NCBI GenBank assembly: GCA_022449765.1
Contig: JAKUPZ010000002.1
Span: forward strand, 62,001-126,000
DNA: 64,000 nucleotides
Origin: Dehalococcoidia bacterium
Lineage (GTDB): Bacteria > Chloroflexota > Dehalococcoidia > Lucifugimonadales > Australimonadaceae
Direction of reading: 5' to 3'
Positions 13,395 through 22,256 of this stretch are shown one piece after another; positions within the stretch are counted from its first letter, which is position 1; every line of letters starts with the position of its first letter. The notes below the pieces were generated by a model that did not search any database, was not told the DNA's origin, and saw only the letters and a list, made by a program, of their open reading frames with translations. The position numbers and the translations under genes are program-made.

Positions 13395-13817
13395 TTATAG
13401 ACTTAGATTCTCTGAACCCTTGGAAAATCTACCTGCATGAGATTTTTCAGCTCGAGCCAAAGTTTCAAACCATTCTGCTAATTCCTCGAAACCTTCGTCG
13501 CGGGCAGTACGTGCAAACCCTGGATACATTTCACTGTATTCGTAAGTCTCACCAGCCTCCGCTGCCTTAAGGTTATTTTCAGTTGTACCGATTGCTAATC
13601 CTGTTCCAGGGTCTCCAGTCTCTTTCAAGAAATCTAGATGACCGAAAGCGTGTCCTGTTTCAGCTTCAGATATATCACGGAATAGACCACCTATCTCTGC
13701 ATACCCTTCGATGTCAGCGCGTCTTGCAAAGTATAGATAACGCCTGTTTGCTTGTGATTCTCCCGCAAAGGCGTCTTTTAAGTTTTGCTCACTTTGAGTA
13801 CCTTTAAGATCTGGCAT
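13395..13817 (-). CDS. Rubrerythrin (diiron domain only)
   Basis: Ferritin-like diiron protein that reduces hydrogen peroxide with electrons from a redox partner. The 140-aa protein has the four-helix pattern with metal ligands in [31 protein letters not shown] and [10 protein letters not shown]. The C-terminal rubredoxin domain of classical rubrerythrin is missing, so electrons must come from another protein, plausibly the adjacent Fe-S oxidoreductase. I chose ATG 13817, with GAGG 8 nt upstream; a GTG at 13826 is also in frame. A strong terminator follows, suggesting high expression of this gene alone. Confidence 0.92.
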
Positions 13818-13924
13818 TTTGTGCACCTCAAAATATTAAAATTTCGTAACAATATAATAATAACAGTGAGAAGGCTTAGTTCAAAGCTTTAGGTGTTATA
13901 GATTTAACTTCGCTAATGAAGCGT

Positions 13925-13953
13925 TTGCATCTAATCTATTAACGCAGTATAAT
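13925..13953 (+). promoter_or_regulatory. Promoter for rpoB-rpoC
   Basis: TTGCAT (13925-13930) and a perfect TATAAT (13948-13953) are exactly 17 bp apart. Transcription would start near 13960 and leave a leader of about 140 nt before rpoB. The rest of the 13818-14102 gap contains A/T-rich DNA before the divergent rubrerythrin gene, with no other clear element. Confidence 0.75.
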
Positions 13954-14028
13954 TACCCCCATATAGGAGTAGAGGTGCGCAGGCGCGTAACCACACTAAA
14001 TATCCCAATTAACGCATAAAAGCGTAAC

Positions 14029-14078
14029 AGGTCTAACGGTGCATTGTCCGTTGGACCTTTTTTCGTGTCTTTGACACG
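14029..14078 (+). terminator. Attenuator-like terminator in the rpoB leader
   Basis: An 11-bp stem, AGGTCTAACGG (14029-14039) with CCGTTGGACCT (14048-14058), contains one G-U pair and is followed by six T residues (14058-14063). That is the shape of a rho-independent terminator, yet it lies inside the leader between promoter and rpoB. A second small perfect hairpin follows (CGTGTC 14064-14069, GACACG 14073-14078). The layout suggests controlled read-through of the RNA polymerase genes. Confidence 0.75.
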
Positions 14079-14102
14079 TCAATTTCGGTTGTAGGAGAAT
14101 TC

Positions 14103-17100
14103 ATGACTACGCTAGTATCTAGATCTGATCAATATCCGGTTCACCCTCTTAAATCTTATGCTCGTATACATAAGGTCATTGAGCCTTCAAGCTTGGTCCA
14201 AATACAGACCCAGTCGTTTGACTCATTAAAAATCGATGGCATCCGTGAGGTGCTTGATGAAATTAACCCCATACAGGATGTTACGGGAAGCCGATTTGAA
14301 TTGAAATTTGGGTCTTATGAGTTCCGTAAGCCTAAATATACTGAGGAAGAGTGTCGCGATCGAGAAATTACGTTTGAGGCGCCCTTGTACGTCACAGTTG
14401 AGTTGGAAGTTAAAGAAACTGGGGAAATAAAGGAACAGACTTTATTTTTCGGTGACATTCCAATGATGACCCCGACGGGTACATTTGTAATCAATGGGGC
14501 TGAACGGGTAGTAGTCAGCCAGTTGGTACGATCTCCAGGTGCCTATTTTACGAGAGTTATTGACCCTGGTACTGGCCGGAATGTTTCTTTATCAAAATTG
14601 ATACCTTATCGAGGAGCTTGGTTAGAATTTGAAACTAGTCCTCGAGACATAATTTCAGTAAAAATTGATAGGAAACGAAAACTTCCAATCACAACTTTCC
14701 TCAGAGCGCTAGGTTTTGCAGAGAATGAGCAGCTTTTGGGAATGTTCGACGATGTAGATGTTGACCCTGATCATCCATATATGCGCACTACATTGGAGAA
14801 AGACGGAGGTATTGAAACGGAAGCTCAGGCCCTTGTGGAGGTCTATCGACGCTTGAGGCCAGGTGAGCCTGCGAGCGTTGAGAGTGCACGCTCATTAATT
14901 GACAATCTGTTTTTCAATCCTCGTAGGTATGATCTTGGGAAAGTTGGCCGGTACAAGATGAATAGGCGTATGGGCCAAGATATTCCTCAACAAAATCGTA
15001 CGCTTACTAAGGAAGACATTGTTGAAATGATTCGTATGATGATCAGGATTAACAATGGGGTTTCACACGCTGATGATATTGACCATCTAGGAAACCGTCG
15101 TGTTCGTGCAGTTGGTGAATTAATTATGAACCAGCTAAGGGTAGGTTTGCTTAGGATGGAGCGTGTTGTTAAAGAGCGCATGACCATTTTGGACCAAGAA
15201 GAAGCTACTCCAAGTGCGCTGATTAACATACGCCCGGTTGTTGCGGCGTTACGTGAGTTTTTTGGTGGGTCACAATTGTCTCAATTTATGGACCAGACCA
15301 ACCCTCTTGCCGAATTGACGCACAAACGCAGGCTTTCTGCTCTTGGACCAGGCGGATTATCAAGGGAGCGAGCAGGATTTGATGTGCGAGATGTCCATTA
15401 CTCCCACTATGGTCGTATATGTCCGATTGAAACTCCTGAGGGGCCGAATATTGGCCTGCTAGGTTCTCTTGCCACCTATGGGCGTATTAATGACTACGGT
15501 TTCATTGAGACTCCATATAGAAAAGTGCTAAAAGAAATTTCTACAAAATCAGATGATTTAACTGGTCGAATATCTCGGCAGGATGTTAAAGATGCAGAAG
15601 GGAAAAATATTGTACGTTCAGGGAATATAATTTCGACAGCCGCGGCCAAAAAACTTGCACTGCTAGATCAAGTTATGGCAATTCAGCCTTATGTTTCGGA
15701 ATCACCTGAAGACGTGGTTTATCTTTCTGCAGACGAAGAAGAAAAATATGTTGTTGCGCAAGCAAACTCCCAAATGGATGCAAAATTTCAGCTGACTGAA
15801 GACAAAGTAGAATGCAGAGTTTCTGAAGATTATTCAATGGAATCCCCTGAAAACGTCGATTATGTCGACGTGGCTCCCATGCAAATAGTAAGTGTTTCTA
15901 CAGCCTTGATTCCTTTCTTGGAACACGATGATGCTAACCGTGCATTGATGGGTTCAAATATGCAACGCCAGGCGGTTCCTCTTCTTCGTCCTGATGCTCC
16001 TTTGGTAGGCACTGGAATGGAAAGGCGAGTTGCGAGAGATTCTGGGCAGATGGTGCTGGCTAAAGTTGAGGGTACCGTTATTTCAGTGACGGGAGATTTA
16101 GTCGTAATACGAGATTCTGAAGGGTATGAACATCCTCAGATACTAAGAAAATTCGTTCGTTCCAACCAAGGCACCTGTTTAACCCAACGAGCCATAGTCT
16201 CCGTTGGTCAATATGTTGAAGAAGGTGATCCGCTTGCTGATAGTTCATCTACACAGGAAGGGGATCTCGCACTTGGACAGAATGTATTGTGCGCATTTAT
16301 GGCCATGGAAGGCTATAACTTTGAGGATGCAATAATTGTATCTGAGAACATTGTGCGAAATTCGAAATTTACTTCCATTCACATTGAAAAGTATGAAGTT
16401 GAATCCAGAGATACAAAATTAGGCCCTGGTGAGATTACTCGCGATATCCCTAATGTTGGGGAGGATGCGCTACGCAACCTTGATGAGGATGGGATTATAA
16501 GAATAGGCGCAGAAGTTACTCCTGGTGACATTCTCGTTGGTAAAATTACACCAAAAGGTGAAACTGAGCTCACTGCGGAAGAAAAATTGCTTAGAGCAAT
16601 TTTTGGAGAAAAAGCGAGAGATGTTAAAGATACCTCTTTAAGAGTTCCACATGGGGAGAGAGGTAAGGTTATTGAGGTTAAGATCCTAACACGTGAAAAC
16701 GGGGATGATCTTCTTCCCGGTGTGAACAAGCTTGTTCGTGTTTGGGTTGCACAAACCCGAACTTTGTCTCAGGGCGACAAGATGGCAGGTCGACATGGTA
16801 ATAAAGGCGTTGTATCCCGAATTATGCCCGTAGAAGATATGCCTTACCTTTCTGACGGCACGCCAATAGATATTATTTTGAACCCAATTGGAGTACCTTC
16901 TCGTATGAATCTGGGTCAAGTGCTTGAAACTCATTTAGGGCTTGCTGCTCATAAACTCCGATTTCGTGCTGCTACGCCAGTATTCGACGGGGCATCTGAC
17001 GGAGACATACAGGACGCATTAGCCCGTTCTTGGATCCTAGAGCGATCAAATTCACTTGGAAGCGATTTATTAGGCGCTACTAATTATGAGCCCGATTGGA

Positions 17101-17969
17101 GCAAGGCACGAGCGTGGGTATCAGAAAGAGGCTATTCTGCAGATAAAATATTCGATGAAACCGCAATTAATTATGCAGCAGAGGTTTGTCTGAAAATTTG
17201 GCTTAATGATTTCACTGAGGCCTACTATGATCAGACAAATATTTCTATAACAACTGAGGACCTAGGTTTCAATGAGCTTTATGAGCTTGCATTGGAAGTA
17301 GGTCGTGTCTTGAGTGTTGCCGCTCCTGTATTAGGGAAATCCACTCTTTTTGATGGCAGAACTGGAGAAAAATTTGATGGGCCTGTGACAGTTGGCTATA
17401 TATATATGCTTAAACTTATACATTTAGTGGAAGATAAAATTCACGCTCGTTCTACAGGACCGTACTCGCTAATTACGCAGCAACCATTGGGCGGGAAAGC
17501 TCAATTTGGCGGCCAGCGATTTGGAGAAATGGAAGTCTGGGCACTTGAAGCATACAGCGCCGCATATAACCTTCAAGAAATGCTTACTGTTAAATCGGAT
17601 GACGTTGTAGGGAGAGTGAAAACTTACGAAGCAATCGTCAAAGGCGAAGACGTTGTGCAACCAGGCGTCCCTGAATCATTTCATGTATTGGTGAAAGAAT
17701 TACAGAGCCTAGGGTTGGCTGTAGAACTGCGCTATGAAGATGACCGAGGAGTGCCAACACCAAGATTTACATATGCTGAAGAGGATGAAGACGATATTTC
17801 AGGAGTATTAGCCGCTCCTCAGGAGCAACCAGTTGCACCTGCTTGGGAGGCTGATTTTGTTCCATTAGAAGAGCAGGAGTCAGAAATTTCCAATGAGGTT
17901 CGTATGGATTTGGGCACATATGCCCGCCATGCTTCCGAAGAGGAAAATGACAACGATCTGAATAATTAA
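14103..17969 (+). CDS. rpoB: DNA-directed RNA polymerase subunit beta
   Basis: Catalytic beta subunit of RNA polymerase, 1288 aa. The rifampicin pocket shows the ordinary sequence ([17 protein letters not shown], then [14 protein letters not shown]), so no resistance change is visible. The lysines and arginines of the active site ([12 protein letters not shown]) and the C-terminal [19 protein letters not shown] are all present. The last 65 or so residues form an acidic tail that the E. coli protein lacks. AGGAGA lies 4 nt before the ATG. rpoC follows after 57 nt. The usual upstream genes rplK-rplA-rplJ-rplL are absent here; the operon has its own promoter and attenuator-like leader. Confidence 0.98.
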
Positions 17970-18026
17970 TTTTATTACTTGAATGTATGAGTGAACCTAC
18001 TGCGAGGTTCACCTAGGAGAATTGAC

Positions 18027-21000
18027 ATGCCGAACGGGACTGACTTTAATGCCATACGAATTTCTCTTGCATCACCTGAACAGATCAGGCAATGGTCATA
18101 TGGAGAAATAACTAAGCCGGAAACAATTAATTACCGTACGTTGCGACCAGAGAAGGATGGTCTTTTCTGTGAGCGTATTTTTGGACCTACCAAGGACTGG
18201 GAATGCTATTGCGGTAAATATAAAAAGATTCGGTATAAGGGTGTAATTTGTGATCGCTGTGGAGTTGAAGTCGCTAGGGCAAAAGTGAGGCGTGAGCGTA
18301 TGGGGCATGTTGCTCTTGCTGCTCCAGTGGCACACATATGGTTTGCCAAAGGAATCCCCAGTAGATTGGGCCTGCTGTTAGATTTATCCCCAAGGAATAT
18401 GGAACGGGTACTATACTTTGCGCAGTATGTAGTGATCTCTACTGACCCTCTTTTGCAGACTCGAAAAGTTGAAGAATTAGAGAATTTATTTGCACAGCAA
18501 ACTGAGGCTTTGGAAACACAATTTACAGAGCAACTACTCGTTCTCGAAGCTGAATTAGAATCTGAGTCTAGTGATGCGAAATTAGAAATTCAAAGCAAAA
18601 TCGACGAGTTGCACGAGAATAATAAAAGAGCTACTGCCGAACTTGAAAATGCACTAAAACAAGAGGTTGATGACATAGAGAGTATTCAACCTATGATGCT
18701 TCTTACAGAAACTAGGTATCGCGATCTCAATGATAAGTATTCTGATCTTTTCCGTGCAGGAATGGGTGCTGAGGCGATACTTGATATTCTTAAAACAGTT
18801 GATTTGGAACGCATTAGCCAAGAATTAGAAATTGAAATACGTACAACTTCTGGGCAAAAAAGAAAAAGAGCAATAAAGAGAGCGAGAGTTATTGAGGCTT
18901 TTCGCCGTAGTGGAAACAAACCTGAATGGATGGTTATGACTTCCCTTCCAGTCCTACCTCCAGACTTACGGCCAATGGTGCAATTAGATGGGGGGCGTTT
19001 TGCCACTAGTGATCTAAACGATCTCTACCGAAGGGTTATTAATCGGAACAATCGGTTGAGGCGGCTGCTTGAGTTAGGGGCACCAGAGATAATTATCCGT
19101 AACGAGAAACGGATGCTGCAAGAGGCTGTAGATGATTTAATCGATAATGGTCGCAGAGGCCGCGCAATTGTTGGTAGTCATAATCATAAATTAAAGAGTC
19201 TGTCTGATTTGCTTCGAGGGAAACAAGGGCGCTTTCGTCAAAATTTGTTAGGTAAGCGAGTTGATTATGGAGGCCGTTCCGTCATTGTAGTAGGACCTAG
19301 CCTTCGCTTACATCAATGCGGATTGCCTAAGAAAATGGCACTGGAATTATTTAAACCGTTTGTAATGAATAGACTTGTGGTACAAGGATTTGCACACAAC
19401 ATCAAAAGTGCAAAGAGGATGGTAGAGCGGGAAAGACCTGAAGTTTGGGATATATTAGAAGAAGTAATCCAGGGTCGCCCTGTGATGCTCAATCGTGCTC
19501 CTACTTTACATCGCTTAGGTATTCAAGCATTTATGCCTACGCTTGTAGAGGGTAGTGCTATTCAACTTCATCCCCTAGTATGCGCTGCTTTCAACGCAGA
19601 TTTTGATGGTGATCAGATGGCTGTTCATGTGCCACTTTCTCAAGAGGCAGTGCATGAAGCTCGAAATGTAATGCTTAGCACTTTTAACATGCTTTCACCT
19701 AGTTCGGGTGAGCCTTTAGTAGCTCCTACTTATGAAATCGTGCTTGGCTGTTACTACCTCACGCAAGTAAAAGAGAACGCTAAAGGTACTGACACGAAGT
19801 ACCGTGATTTTGAAGATGTGATGATGGCTTATGATTCTGGTCTTATTGAGCTGCATTCCCAAGTATCGGTACGCACAAAAGACCATGAAGAGGGTTGGCT
19901 TAAAACTACTCCCGGTCGAATAATATTTAACCAAGTATTACCAGAAGAAGTGCGTGCATATCAGAAAGTAATGGACAAGAAAGAGCTTAAAGAGCTTGTT
20001 ACTGCTGTTTACAGACTTTCGGGGAATGAAGTTACTTCTGTTGTATTAGATAAACTAAAACAGATTGGATTTCATTACGCGACTGTATCCGGTACCACCA
20101 TTGGAATTACGGATATTAAAGTTCCTAAGGAGAAGTCAGAGATTATAGCTGGAGCTGATGCTGAAATTACTGAGCTTGAAGATCAGTATGAAATGGGCTT
20201 GATAACTGAGCGAGAGAAGCACAATCGTGCTGTAGCAGCCTGGCAGAGAGTTTCTGGGAAAATGGATGAAGTTATCCAGAAGCACTTACCCGAATTTGGT
20301 GGGATCTACACAATGGCTCACTCCGGAGCTCGCGGTAATGAAGCCCAGATCAAACAGATGGCAGTTATGCGTGGATTAATGAGCAATCCACGTGGTGACA
20401 TTATTGAACTGCCAATTAAATCAAGCTTCCGCGAGGGCCTCACGGTTTTAGAGTATTTCATCTCAACTCACGGTGCTAGAAAAGGATTGGCTGACACGGC
20501 TTTGCGGACAGCAGATTCTGGTTATTTGACAAGGAGATTAATTGACGTAGCACAAGAAGTTATTGTTCTTGAAGAAGATTGTGAAACTGATCGTGGAGTA
20601 ATTTTGCATGCCGATGCATCTGAAGAAGATGTAATGATTGCTGGGATTGCAGAAAGAATTATTGGTCGGGTAGTTTCCTCTCCAATTGCTCATCCAGAGA
20701 CAGGTGAAATCATCGCAGATATTGGTCTGATTATTGAAGAGCACAAGGCTAAAGAGATCGAAAATGCTGGTGTAAAAGAACTTTGGCTCCGAAGTCCTCT
20801 GACTTGTGAAGCTACTAGAGGTATCTGCCAGGTTTGCTATGGCCGCAGCCCTGCGTCTGGGAAATATGCGTTGATTGGCGATGCTGTAGGTATCATTGCT
20901 GCTCAGTCAATTGGAGAACCAGGAACACAATTAACGATGCGTACCTTTCACATGGGAGGTATTGCTGGGAAAGATATTACCTCTGGTTTGCCAAGGGTCG

Positions 21001-22256
21001 AAGAGCTTTTCGAAGCTAGGTCACCAAAAGGTAAATCGACAATTGCAGAGATTGATGGGGATGTAATTATTTTCGAGAATGGAACAATAATTGGGGATTA
21101 TGTTGAAGATCCGGATCCTCAGGTTTATACCCCTCCAACATCAATGACTACAGTGATTCGTGTTGTAAATAAAATCCCTTTCACAGATTCATATTTGATC
21201 CCAGAGACTCACAAGTTAGTGGTTAAGGCCAAGCAGGTAGTAAAGGCAGGTCAAGTTCTTGCACAGGCGCGTCCGAAAAAGGGTACGAAACCCTCGGACG
21301 ATAATGATGAAGAAGTTGATCAAAGCCCTCAACTGGTGGATTTATTGGCACGTGTTTCTGGAGTGGTACGGGCTGTGGACGGCGGAATTGAAATAGATGC
21401 TTTTGAAATTGAAGTGAGGGATCATCCTGTAGATGCGACTGATCAAAGATTAGTGCGAACAGGAGATGCAGCTTATGCTGGAGGCAAGCTAACTAGCGGA
21501 GTCAAAGATCCCCACGATATTCTTCGTGTAGAAGGAATTGAAGCAACTCAACGGTATTTAGTTGAGCAGGTGCAAACTGTTTACAGGAACCAAGGTGTTT
21601 CGATAAATGATAAGCATATTGAAACTATTATTCGGCAATTGCTGCGTTGGGTACGTGTTGAAACAAGCGGCGATACTGACCTTTTACCGAACCAATTGAC
21701 GGACCGATTACAATTCCAGGAAGTCAATGAACGAATTATTGCTGAAGGCGGCGAGCCTGCTACTAGTAAGCCAGAAATTTTAGGGGTAACTCGCGCATCC
21801 TTGAATACTGACAGCTTCTTAGCGAAAGCTTCTTTTCAAGAGACTGCAAGAGTGCTTACCGAAGCCGCAATTTTAGGTGAAGTCGATTACCTTCGCGGTC
21901 TCAAAGAGAACGTGATCATTGGACGATTGATCCCAGCAAGACTGGATGTTTCTGAAGAAGGACGTCAATTACTTGGCTTGCCTGAATCTTCATTTGCTAC
22001 TAATGCCGCTGTTGTAGACGATGGTGAGAATGATGTGGCTGACTTAGCACAATTGATTGAAGATATTCCTGGAGATAATTCAAGTATCGACAATATCTTA
22101 GAAGATATTTTAGGTACAGACGATGAAGGGGATGATGATATCTTCGATTCTGTAGAAGATGACTTAGCAGAACCAGAAATAACTGCAGACGATGATATTG
22201 CAGATCCCGAAATCACTTCGGACGATGATCCTTTTGAGGAAATTGAAGAAGAATAA
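18027..22256 (+). CDS. rpoC: DNA-directed RNA polymerase subunit beta'
   Basis: Clamp and catalytic subunit of RNA polymerase, 1409 aa from ATG 18027, which has AGGAGA at 6-nt spacing; a GTG at 17991 is in frame but has no such site. Visible are the N-terminal zinc motif (CYCG.. and CDRCGVEV), the catalytic [12 protein letters not shown] loop, the second zinc site ([13 protein letters not shown]), the trigger-loop region (MRTFHMGG) and a charged coiled coil at about 145-235. The C-terminal 80 or so residues are strongly acidic and end in a duplicated 11-aa unit. A perfect 22-bp hairpin ends the operon. Confidence 0.98.
22167..22232 (+). repeat. 33-bp imperfect tandem duplication in the rpoC 3' end
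   Basis: Two adjacent 33-nt units (22167-22199, 22200-22232) encode [11 protein letters not shown] and [11 protein letters not shown] in the beta' acidic tail. The copies differ at several third positions, so the duplication is not very recent. Confidence 0.8.

Follow-up and report, generated by a model that had tools for sequence, protein, structure and literature searches.

How a bacterium keeps its supply of RNA polymerase in balance with its ribosomes is an old question. Part of the answer of Escherichia coli is a joint operon, in which rplKAJL adjoins rpoB, and an attenuator. The genome analysed here (1.6 Mb in 35 contigs), from which we took one stretch of 64,000 nucleotides (the window), raises the question of what can stand in for this arrangement. 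Its classical rplKAJL-rpoBC unit is split, and rpoBC does not lie directly behind rplL. The genes rplK-rplA-rplJ-rplL are found on contig 7, behind secE and nusG (names from translations; L12 by family search), with an L10 leader (RF00557) before rplJ at L278:2609-2740 (53.6 bits) that has its own terminator. An earlier inspection of the window (the sequence-only reading) had found the ribosomal protein genes to be missing upstream of rpoB. This agrees with our results: rplKAJL is on another contig, and the direct neighbour of rpoB is a divergent rubrerythrin-like gene. The locus, in window coordinates, is laid out as follows.

13395 to 13826, reverse strand: divergent rubrerythrin-like gene (name from translation)
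13924 to 13953, forward strand: rpoBC promoter, with -35 box TTTGCA, an 18-bp spacer and -10 box TATAAT (consensus scan)
13965 to 13969, forward strand: Shine-Dalgarno AGGAG of the leader open reading frame (ORF), at about RNA position +6 (from the sequence)
13975 to 14019, forward strand: leader ORF of 14 codons, GTG to TAA (MRRRVTTLNIPINA; frame tests, identity with the congener)
14029 to 14058, forward strand: terminator-like hairpin of 11 bp, with 6 GC pairs and a loop of 8 (scan, fold, covariation)
14058 to 14063, forward strand: run of six T (U-tract), the first T being the last base of the stem; putative end of the short RNA (from the sequence)
14064 to 14070, forward strand: CGTGTCT motif right behind the U-tract (12 of 15 family leaders have CGYGTCT)
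14064 to 14078, forward strand: second hairpin CGTGTC-TTT-GACACG, perfect, 6 bp (only in the two g1 genomes)
14093 to 14097, forward strand: Shine-Dalgarno AGGAG of rpoB (from the sequence)
14103 to 17969, forward strand: rpoB, with ATG at 14103 (ORF list)
17991 to 22256, forward strand: rpoC (start from the mechanical ORF list; a later ATG may be the true start)

The rubrerythrin-like gene and the rpoBC promoter use one intergenic region in opposite directions. All the elements that the sequence-only reading had named are present: the promoter, the 11-bp hairpin with six T residues 75 nt further on, the short perfect hairpin, and rpoB. From the position of the -10 box we infer that the rpoBC RNA starts near 13960, and the distance from there to the end of the T-run matches the leader RNA of about 105 nt predicted earlier. 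A consensus scan of a 1-kb stretch gave four promoters, with 1.7 expected.

To place the leader among its relatives, we used two samples. The family of the window is represented by 16 genomes, 15 of which contain the start of rpoB and provide the 15 family leaders; the window's genus (g1) is represented by two genomes, that of the window and one congener. The named relatives closest to the window genome by RpoB are labelled Dehalococcoidia, SAR202 cluster or Chloroflexi bacteria, and its order includes SAR202. The first 199 aa of the window's RpoB were matched in 230 of the 250 genomes of the order, and the order-wide sample was built from the upstream regions of part of these genomes, among the matches listed. 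It started with 161 processed regions (101 + 60), of which 150 leaders passed the filters and 106 were non-redundant. Of the 11 excluded leaders, seven had no promoter call (L029, L206), no rpoB match (L239), N bases (L138, L241) or a promoter that scored low (L132, L211), and four were discarded manually because the called promoter or start looked wrong (L168-L171, all from one family). The 106 leaders were thinned by sequence and not by tree, and counts based on them are not fully independent; stricter thinning leaves 57. Two genomes with a closer rpoB match, G088 and G044, also gave distant second RpoB-like matches (G088:C5:277055-277594, 28% identity, and G044:C37:11214-11519, 39%).

The stem type GGTCTAGC..GCTAGGCC is kept in all 15 family leaders in the alignment of rpoB upstream regions, where it begins 62-78 nt past the -10 box, and a TTGAC-like/TAnnnT promoter was called ahead of the leader in each of these 15 loci. 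It is this conservation that identifies the hairpin as real; the scan match alone is near chance (2 terminators in the 1-kb stretch vs 1.0 ± 1.0 expected). Among the 13 distinct stem rows of the family, 92.1% of the 126 cells are paired, compared with 24.6-52.4% when the control pairs are slid by 1-3 columns. Two-sided changes affect 4 of the 11 stem pairs, a number equalled in 9 of 500 shuffles, and no shuffle reached the paired percentage or the covariation score of the stem; pair types in the stem are no more numerous than in shuffles (8 vs 7.7). The pairing, the two-sided changes and both kinds of control therefore indicate that the stem is under selection. The fold of positions 13960-14064 is also much more stable than its shuffles (z -3.74, 0/200), as is that of the 44-nt hairpin segment (z -4.99, 1/200). 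When 10 of the 13 stem rows were folded, the hairpins of g1, g2 and g4 were clearly beyond shuffles (z -3.4 to -5.0), and those of g5, g6 and g7 were not clearly so (z -1.07 to -1.56). In summary, related genomes back the earlier proposal, which set an attenuator-like hairpin between rpoB and a dedicated promoter of rpoBC: the stem is conserved with two-sided changes, and the fold is stable.

A covariance model of the family leader found 16 places before rpoB in 15 of the 16 genomes (two contigs in one genome), although 14 of these matches built the model and are recovered by construction. It revealed no second copy of the element above noise in the 16 family genomes, the next-best match being weak (E 0.012) and restricted to the hairpin part. 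Applied to 96 loci outside the family it gave one match, with an E of 0.74, and therefore only the layout, not the sequence, is common beyond the family. Across the order, the folds of RNA positions 60-110 exceed shuffles in stability (mean z -1.18, p 8.5e-8, n=97). Terminator-like sites occur in 25 of the 106 non-redundant leaders, vs 1-5 in six shuffles; by the definition used, roughly three in four leaders therefore lack one. We consider that the hairpin probably acts on transcription, either by termination or by pause.

The sequence behind the stem differs between genera. A stable hairpin with a U-tract between promoter and gene, as in an intrinsic terminator, is found in the window and its congener. 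In the window's genus, T makes up 6 of the first 8 bases behind the stem, a good U-tract, as against 3-4 of 8 for the remaining 13 family leaders; the stem may not terminate transcription fully in all genera of the family. The second hairpin, which the sequence-only reading had included in the leader's regulatory layout, is present in the window's genus only, and we rejected it as a family-wide part. The conservation of CGYGTCT exceeds what a terminator needs; the motif sits where the polymerase is expected to be released, and we take it to resemble a pause consensus. Similar GCGTY sequences follow T-runs in some other families (L019, L131, L213, L217). In genus g76 (L179-L196), a third hairpin, CGCGT..ACGCG, lies behind the terminator-like hairpin, where the window has its second one. 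An antiterminator with CGTGTCT as one partner was discarded, as no complementary segment was seen upstream by eye.

One account of such a hairpin is a plain partial terminator or pause site that sets the level of rpoBC or responds to the activity of RNA polymerase, a response proposed for E. coli, any ORF in the leader being incidental. A conserved stem with two-sided changes is what this account expects, and the excerpts available of descriptions of the rpoBC attenuator or leader of E. coli and cyanobacteria mention no leader peptide (PMC1242208, PMC2659441). The remainder of the leader fits it less well. The sequence-only reading, which saw the whole leader as devoted to regulation, had overlooked the ORF at 13975-14019, and a purely untranslated regulatory RNA is not supported. 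The GTG of this ORF is about 16 nt from the putative RNA start, and its TAA (14017-14019) ends 9 nt before the hairpin. From one base before AGGAG to the end of the stop codon (13964-14019), the window and its congener are identical at 56 of 56 bases. In rpoB, the same two genomes agree at 19 of 63 fourfold sites, and their longest identical run in 597 nt is 14. That the 56-nt block ends exactly at the stop codon speaks against an incidental ORF. All three codon positions of the ORF are frozen, so the constraint is not on the peptide alone.

The arrangement recurs in the family. Fourteen of the 15 leaders have an ORF of 13-18 codons, whose stop falls inside the stem in 3 leaders and 6-15 nt ahead of it in the other 11, the exception being L015, with an ORF of 4 codons and a stop 41 nt before the stem. 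The sequence AGGAG stands 4-5 nt ahead of the start codon in 8 of the 15 leaders, which again is not expected of a chance ORF before a plain terminator; it is absent in L015 and in the six leaders of g4, a genus in which the starts lie close to the 5' end. The peptides are not conserved: no run of residues is common to the 15 family leaders, and the three Arg codons of the ORF are found in the window's genus only.

We then searched the first 46 nt of the 106 non-redundant leaders of the order for motifs. The motif GTCGAnnTATGYCC was found around the start, with the ATG columns strongest. The start triplet at the motif is ATG in 67 leaders, GTG in 9 and TTG in 3, i.e. 79 of the 106, and in 71 of these 79 it is located 14-24 nt past the -10 box. 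Codons 3-12 are open in 66 of these 71 leaders; the other two frames reach 50 and 51, and shuffles 50.2 ± 4.0. Past codon 13, the frame of the motif start has no such advantage over the other frames in the 71 leaders. First stops accumulate at codon 13 (11, vs 1 and 0 in the other frames; shuffles 1.65, maximum 7) and at codon 25 (8, vs 0 and 3), and those at codons 13-14 use TAA, TAG and TGA. The 57 thinned leaders give the same picture, with a start near RNA +11 and a frame open for at least 13 codons in 54, vs 35 and 38 in the other frames (p 5e-6), and with stops at 13-14 codons in 11, vs 3 and 0 (p 4e-4). Frame-specific openness together with a pile-up of stops is the pattern expected of a translated short ORF, and it speaks against a plain terminator. 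We consider that the leader ORF is probably translated.

Genera of the order keep to this pattern to different degrees. The five leaders fetched from genus g74 (which has 8 genomes) each have precisely 13 codons, although the start varies between GTG and ATG and the stop between TAG and TAA. Of the 18 leaders of g76, a 13-codon ORF is present in 11, three have lost the start codon (L183, L185 and L186, with TCG, ATA and ATC), one has it shifted (L187), and three further leaders have lost the stop at codon 14. The seven leaders of g75 have no fixed stop, their ORFs ranging from 6 to at least 79 codons, and L022 and L026 (genus g19) are one 1-nt indel apart within the frame. The motif was not seen in several AT-rich small genomes, e.g. 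L121, L210 and L212. In other Dehalococcoidia (L037, L038, L050, L055), a related motif, close to TTGTnATTATGCC, follows the rpoB -10 box at the corresponding position; two of these leaders, L050 and L055, have lost its ATG and kept its surroundings.

Comparisons within genera gave no clear excess of differences at third positions (positions 1/2/3: 292/406/385 in g93 and 99/128/143 in g76), and among the family pairs only L004-L009 showed one. Selection at the level of the peptide is not supported by these counts. Since the peptides are not conserved either, the pressure seems to be on the RNA or on translation as such. Both the lack of a third-position excess and the absence of the start codon in some genera are compatible with a plain terminator. 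Given the frame-specific openness, the length pile-up and the spacing described below, we nevertheless think this explanation rather unlikely.

Pressure on the RNA could have another origin: the 5' part of the leader (about RNA +5 to +60) might be an element bound by a protein or a ligand that toggles the hairpin, with the ORF as a by-product. The 56 of 56 identical bases, with every codon position frozen while the silent sites of rpoB are saturated, are the pattern of an RNA-level constraint. The conserved GTCGAnnTATGYCC context around the start points the same way, and some genera (g76, g2, g5) have hairpins there as well. Against such an element, the first 40 nt of the leaders are order-wide no more structured than their shuffles (mean z -0.14, n=106). 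The single match of the family model outside the family indicates that it is not the 5' sequence that is widely common; the position of the start is. Finally, no Rfam family matches the leader, whether the whole window is searched at gathering score or positions 13830-14130 at E up to 10; the latter search gave two chance-level matches, both outside the leader proper. We judge an RNA element of this kind improbable. More specific candidates were also dropped. A lysine riboswitch, suggested by a likeness of TAGAGGTGCGC to its start, gave no match. An RNA thermometer, or a 5' hairpin sequestering the start, was rejected as a general theme: it occurs in some genera only, the first 40 nt are no more structured than shuffles, and in L005 a 12-nt in-frame deletion (read by hand) removes the 5' hairpin arm yet keeps start and frame. 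In g76, the start codon sits in the loop of a small hairpin whose stem varies between GAGA/UCUC and AAGA/UCUU.

The reading that we prefer, a transcription attenuator sensitive to ribosomes, draws on where the ORF stops relative to the hairpin. Of the 18 non-redundant leaders of the order with both parts, 12 have the ORF stop inside the hairpin or at most 20 nt before it, 5 have it past the hairpin and 1 has it far upstream; ten start positions in this count were set by hand (eleven set). Stops with the same spacing occur in 4 and 6 of the 18 leaders in the other frames. A different use of the ORF is suggested by genus g93, from another family (L267-L277), where an ORF of 39-43 codons in 9 of the 11 leaders (broken by an early TAG in L270 and L274) ends at the rpoB Shine-Dalgarno. 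Its TAA overlaps that sequence (TAAGGAG) in 8 of the 11, which suggests translational coupling. This raises a third alternative, that leaders of this type serve translational control or mRNA processing, their hairpins stabilising or processing the 5' end or the ORF coupling translation into rpoB. The RNase III site in the rplL-rpoB interval of E. coli would be a precedent for processing. In the window's family, the ORF stops 62-100 nt ahead of rpoB, too far for coupling, and a T-run follows the stem; there, we regard this alternative as very improbable.

Several known systems resemble the leader in part. One is pyrBI-type attenuation, in which the leader ORF ends at or over the terminator and a trailing ribosome would block the hairpin, as described in the accessible portion of PMC4824070. 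Ending on or near the terminator is what we observe in 14 of 15 family leaders and 12 of 18 order leaders. The differences are that the pyrBI leader gene has 135 bp according to the same portion of that source and the ORF here 14 codons, that the target here is RNA polymerase itself, and that the window leader has no U-rich pause tract. In a search of 14 leaders for a U-rich pause site, the longest T-run was 2 in the window leader and up to 5 in one relative, and UTP sensing is therefore not indicated. The attenuators of trp, his and ilv also combine a short leader ORF with a terminator within about 110 nt, and the leader of ilvB1 in Mycobacterium tuberculosis is comparably arranged (PMC13236596, in the portion available). 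In contrast to these, the leaders studied here have no conserved regulatory codons. Consistent antiterminator pairing may be lacking as well: folded without the 3' arm, 14 leaders pair 0-7 bases of the 5' arm, with no common partner. A codon-sensing leader peptide of trp/his type was rejected, as the 15 family leaders share no codons. Moreover, the stop-to-hairpin distance, 6-15 nt or overlap, compares with more than 20 in amino-acid attenuators (PMC4824070, accessible portion). This spacing therefore points to direct masking of the hairpin, in the manner of pyrBI, and not to codon sensing.

The attenuator between rplL and rpoB of E. coli, with which the sequence-only reading had drawn a parallel, is likewise a terminator-like element upstream of rpoB that is thought to tune rpoBC, according to the excerpts seen of PMC1242208 and PMC2659441. 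It lies inside the joint rplKAJL-rpoBC unit. In the window genome, rplJL is elsewhere, rpoBC has a separate promoter with a leader ORF ahead of the hairpin, and the element is not located between rplL and rpoB in one transcription unit. We found no support for homology between the two, and the likeness is one of analogy. The L10 leader (RF00557) before rplJ of the same genome is an attenuator-type leader of the sister operon, and differs in giving no match at the rpoB leader.

In the mechanism that we propose, RNA polymerase would start near 13960, and the 14-codon ORF would be translated just ahead of the terminator hairpin. Masking of the hairpin by a ribosome that completes the ORF would let the polymerase pass into rpoBC; with late or no translation, the hairpin would form and the short RNA of about 105 nt would be released. 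In relatives with a poor U-tract, the polymerase might pause instead. The quantity sensed would be whether a ribosome initiates and arrives in time, which would link the amount of polymerase core made to the availability of initiating ribosomes. This coupling in the leader could take the place of the one that the joint rplKAJL-rpoBC unit provides in E. coli.

Published measurements show how strongly such masking depends on distance. In the portion seen of PMC4824070, moving the stop codon to 5 bp before a terminator lowered its efficiency from about 90% to less than 10%, an effect that vanished once translation was uncoupled. Terminators 17-18 bp after the stop were 12% or 80% efficient depending on sequence, those more than 30 bp past it were maximally efficient, and the footprint of the ribosome extends about 10 nt past its A site. 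The same portion of this source states that a ribosome is less likely to reach a terminator within the first 100 bp unless the polymerase pauses. That a ribosome should reach so early a terminator in time is the weakest step of the proposal. All considered, including the confinement of a good U-tract to the window's genus, which lowers our confidence, we put the whole switch, i.e. the leader as a ribosome-sensitive transcription attenuator of rpoBC, at just under even chances.

We found no report of a leader peptide of rpoBC, or of this leader in SAR202, in the literature searched, outside of which most subscription journals lie. The named relatives of the lineage include no cultured members, and SAR202 is abundant in the deep ocean. 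A wider reading, which we hold to be somewhat less likely than not, is that in Dehalococcoidia of the SAR202 type, ribosomes gate the making of RNA polymerase at the start of its own mRNA. In this reading, the start is kept near +11, the ORF is minimal (often of 13-14 or 25 codons) with no conserved peptide, and the terminator is placed so that rpoBC would be transcribed only if a ribosome comes on time. With the joint operon split and an ORF-plus-terminator leader in its place, sensing of translation by the leader could bring RNA polymerase and ribosomes back into balance. If this is true, polymerase synthesis would be coupled to translation simply and directly, the sensor being initiation at the extreme 5' end of the RNA, and the supply of polymerase would follow the capacity for translation without an operon common to the ribosomal proteins.
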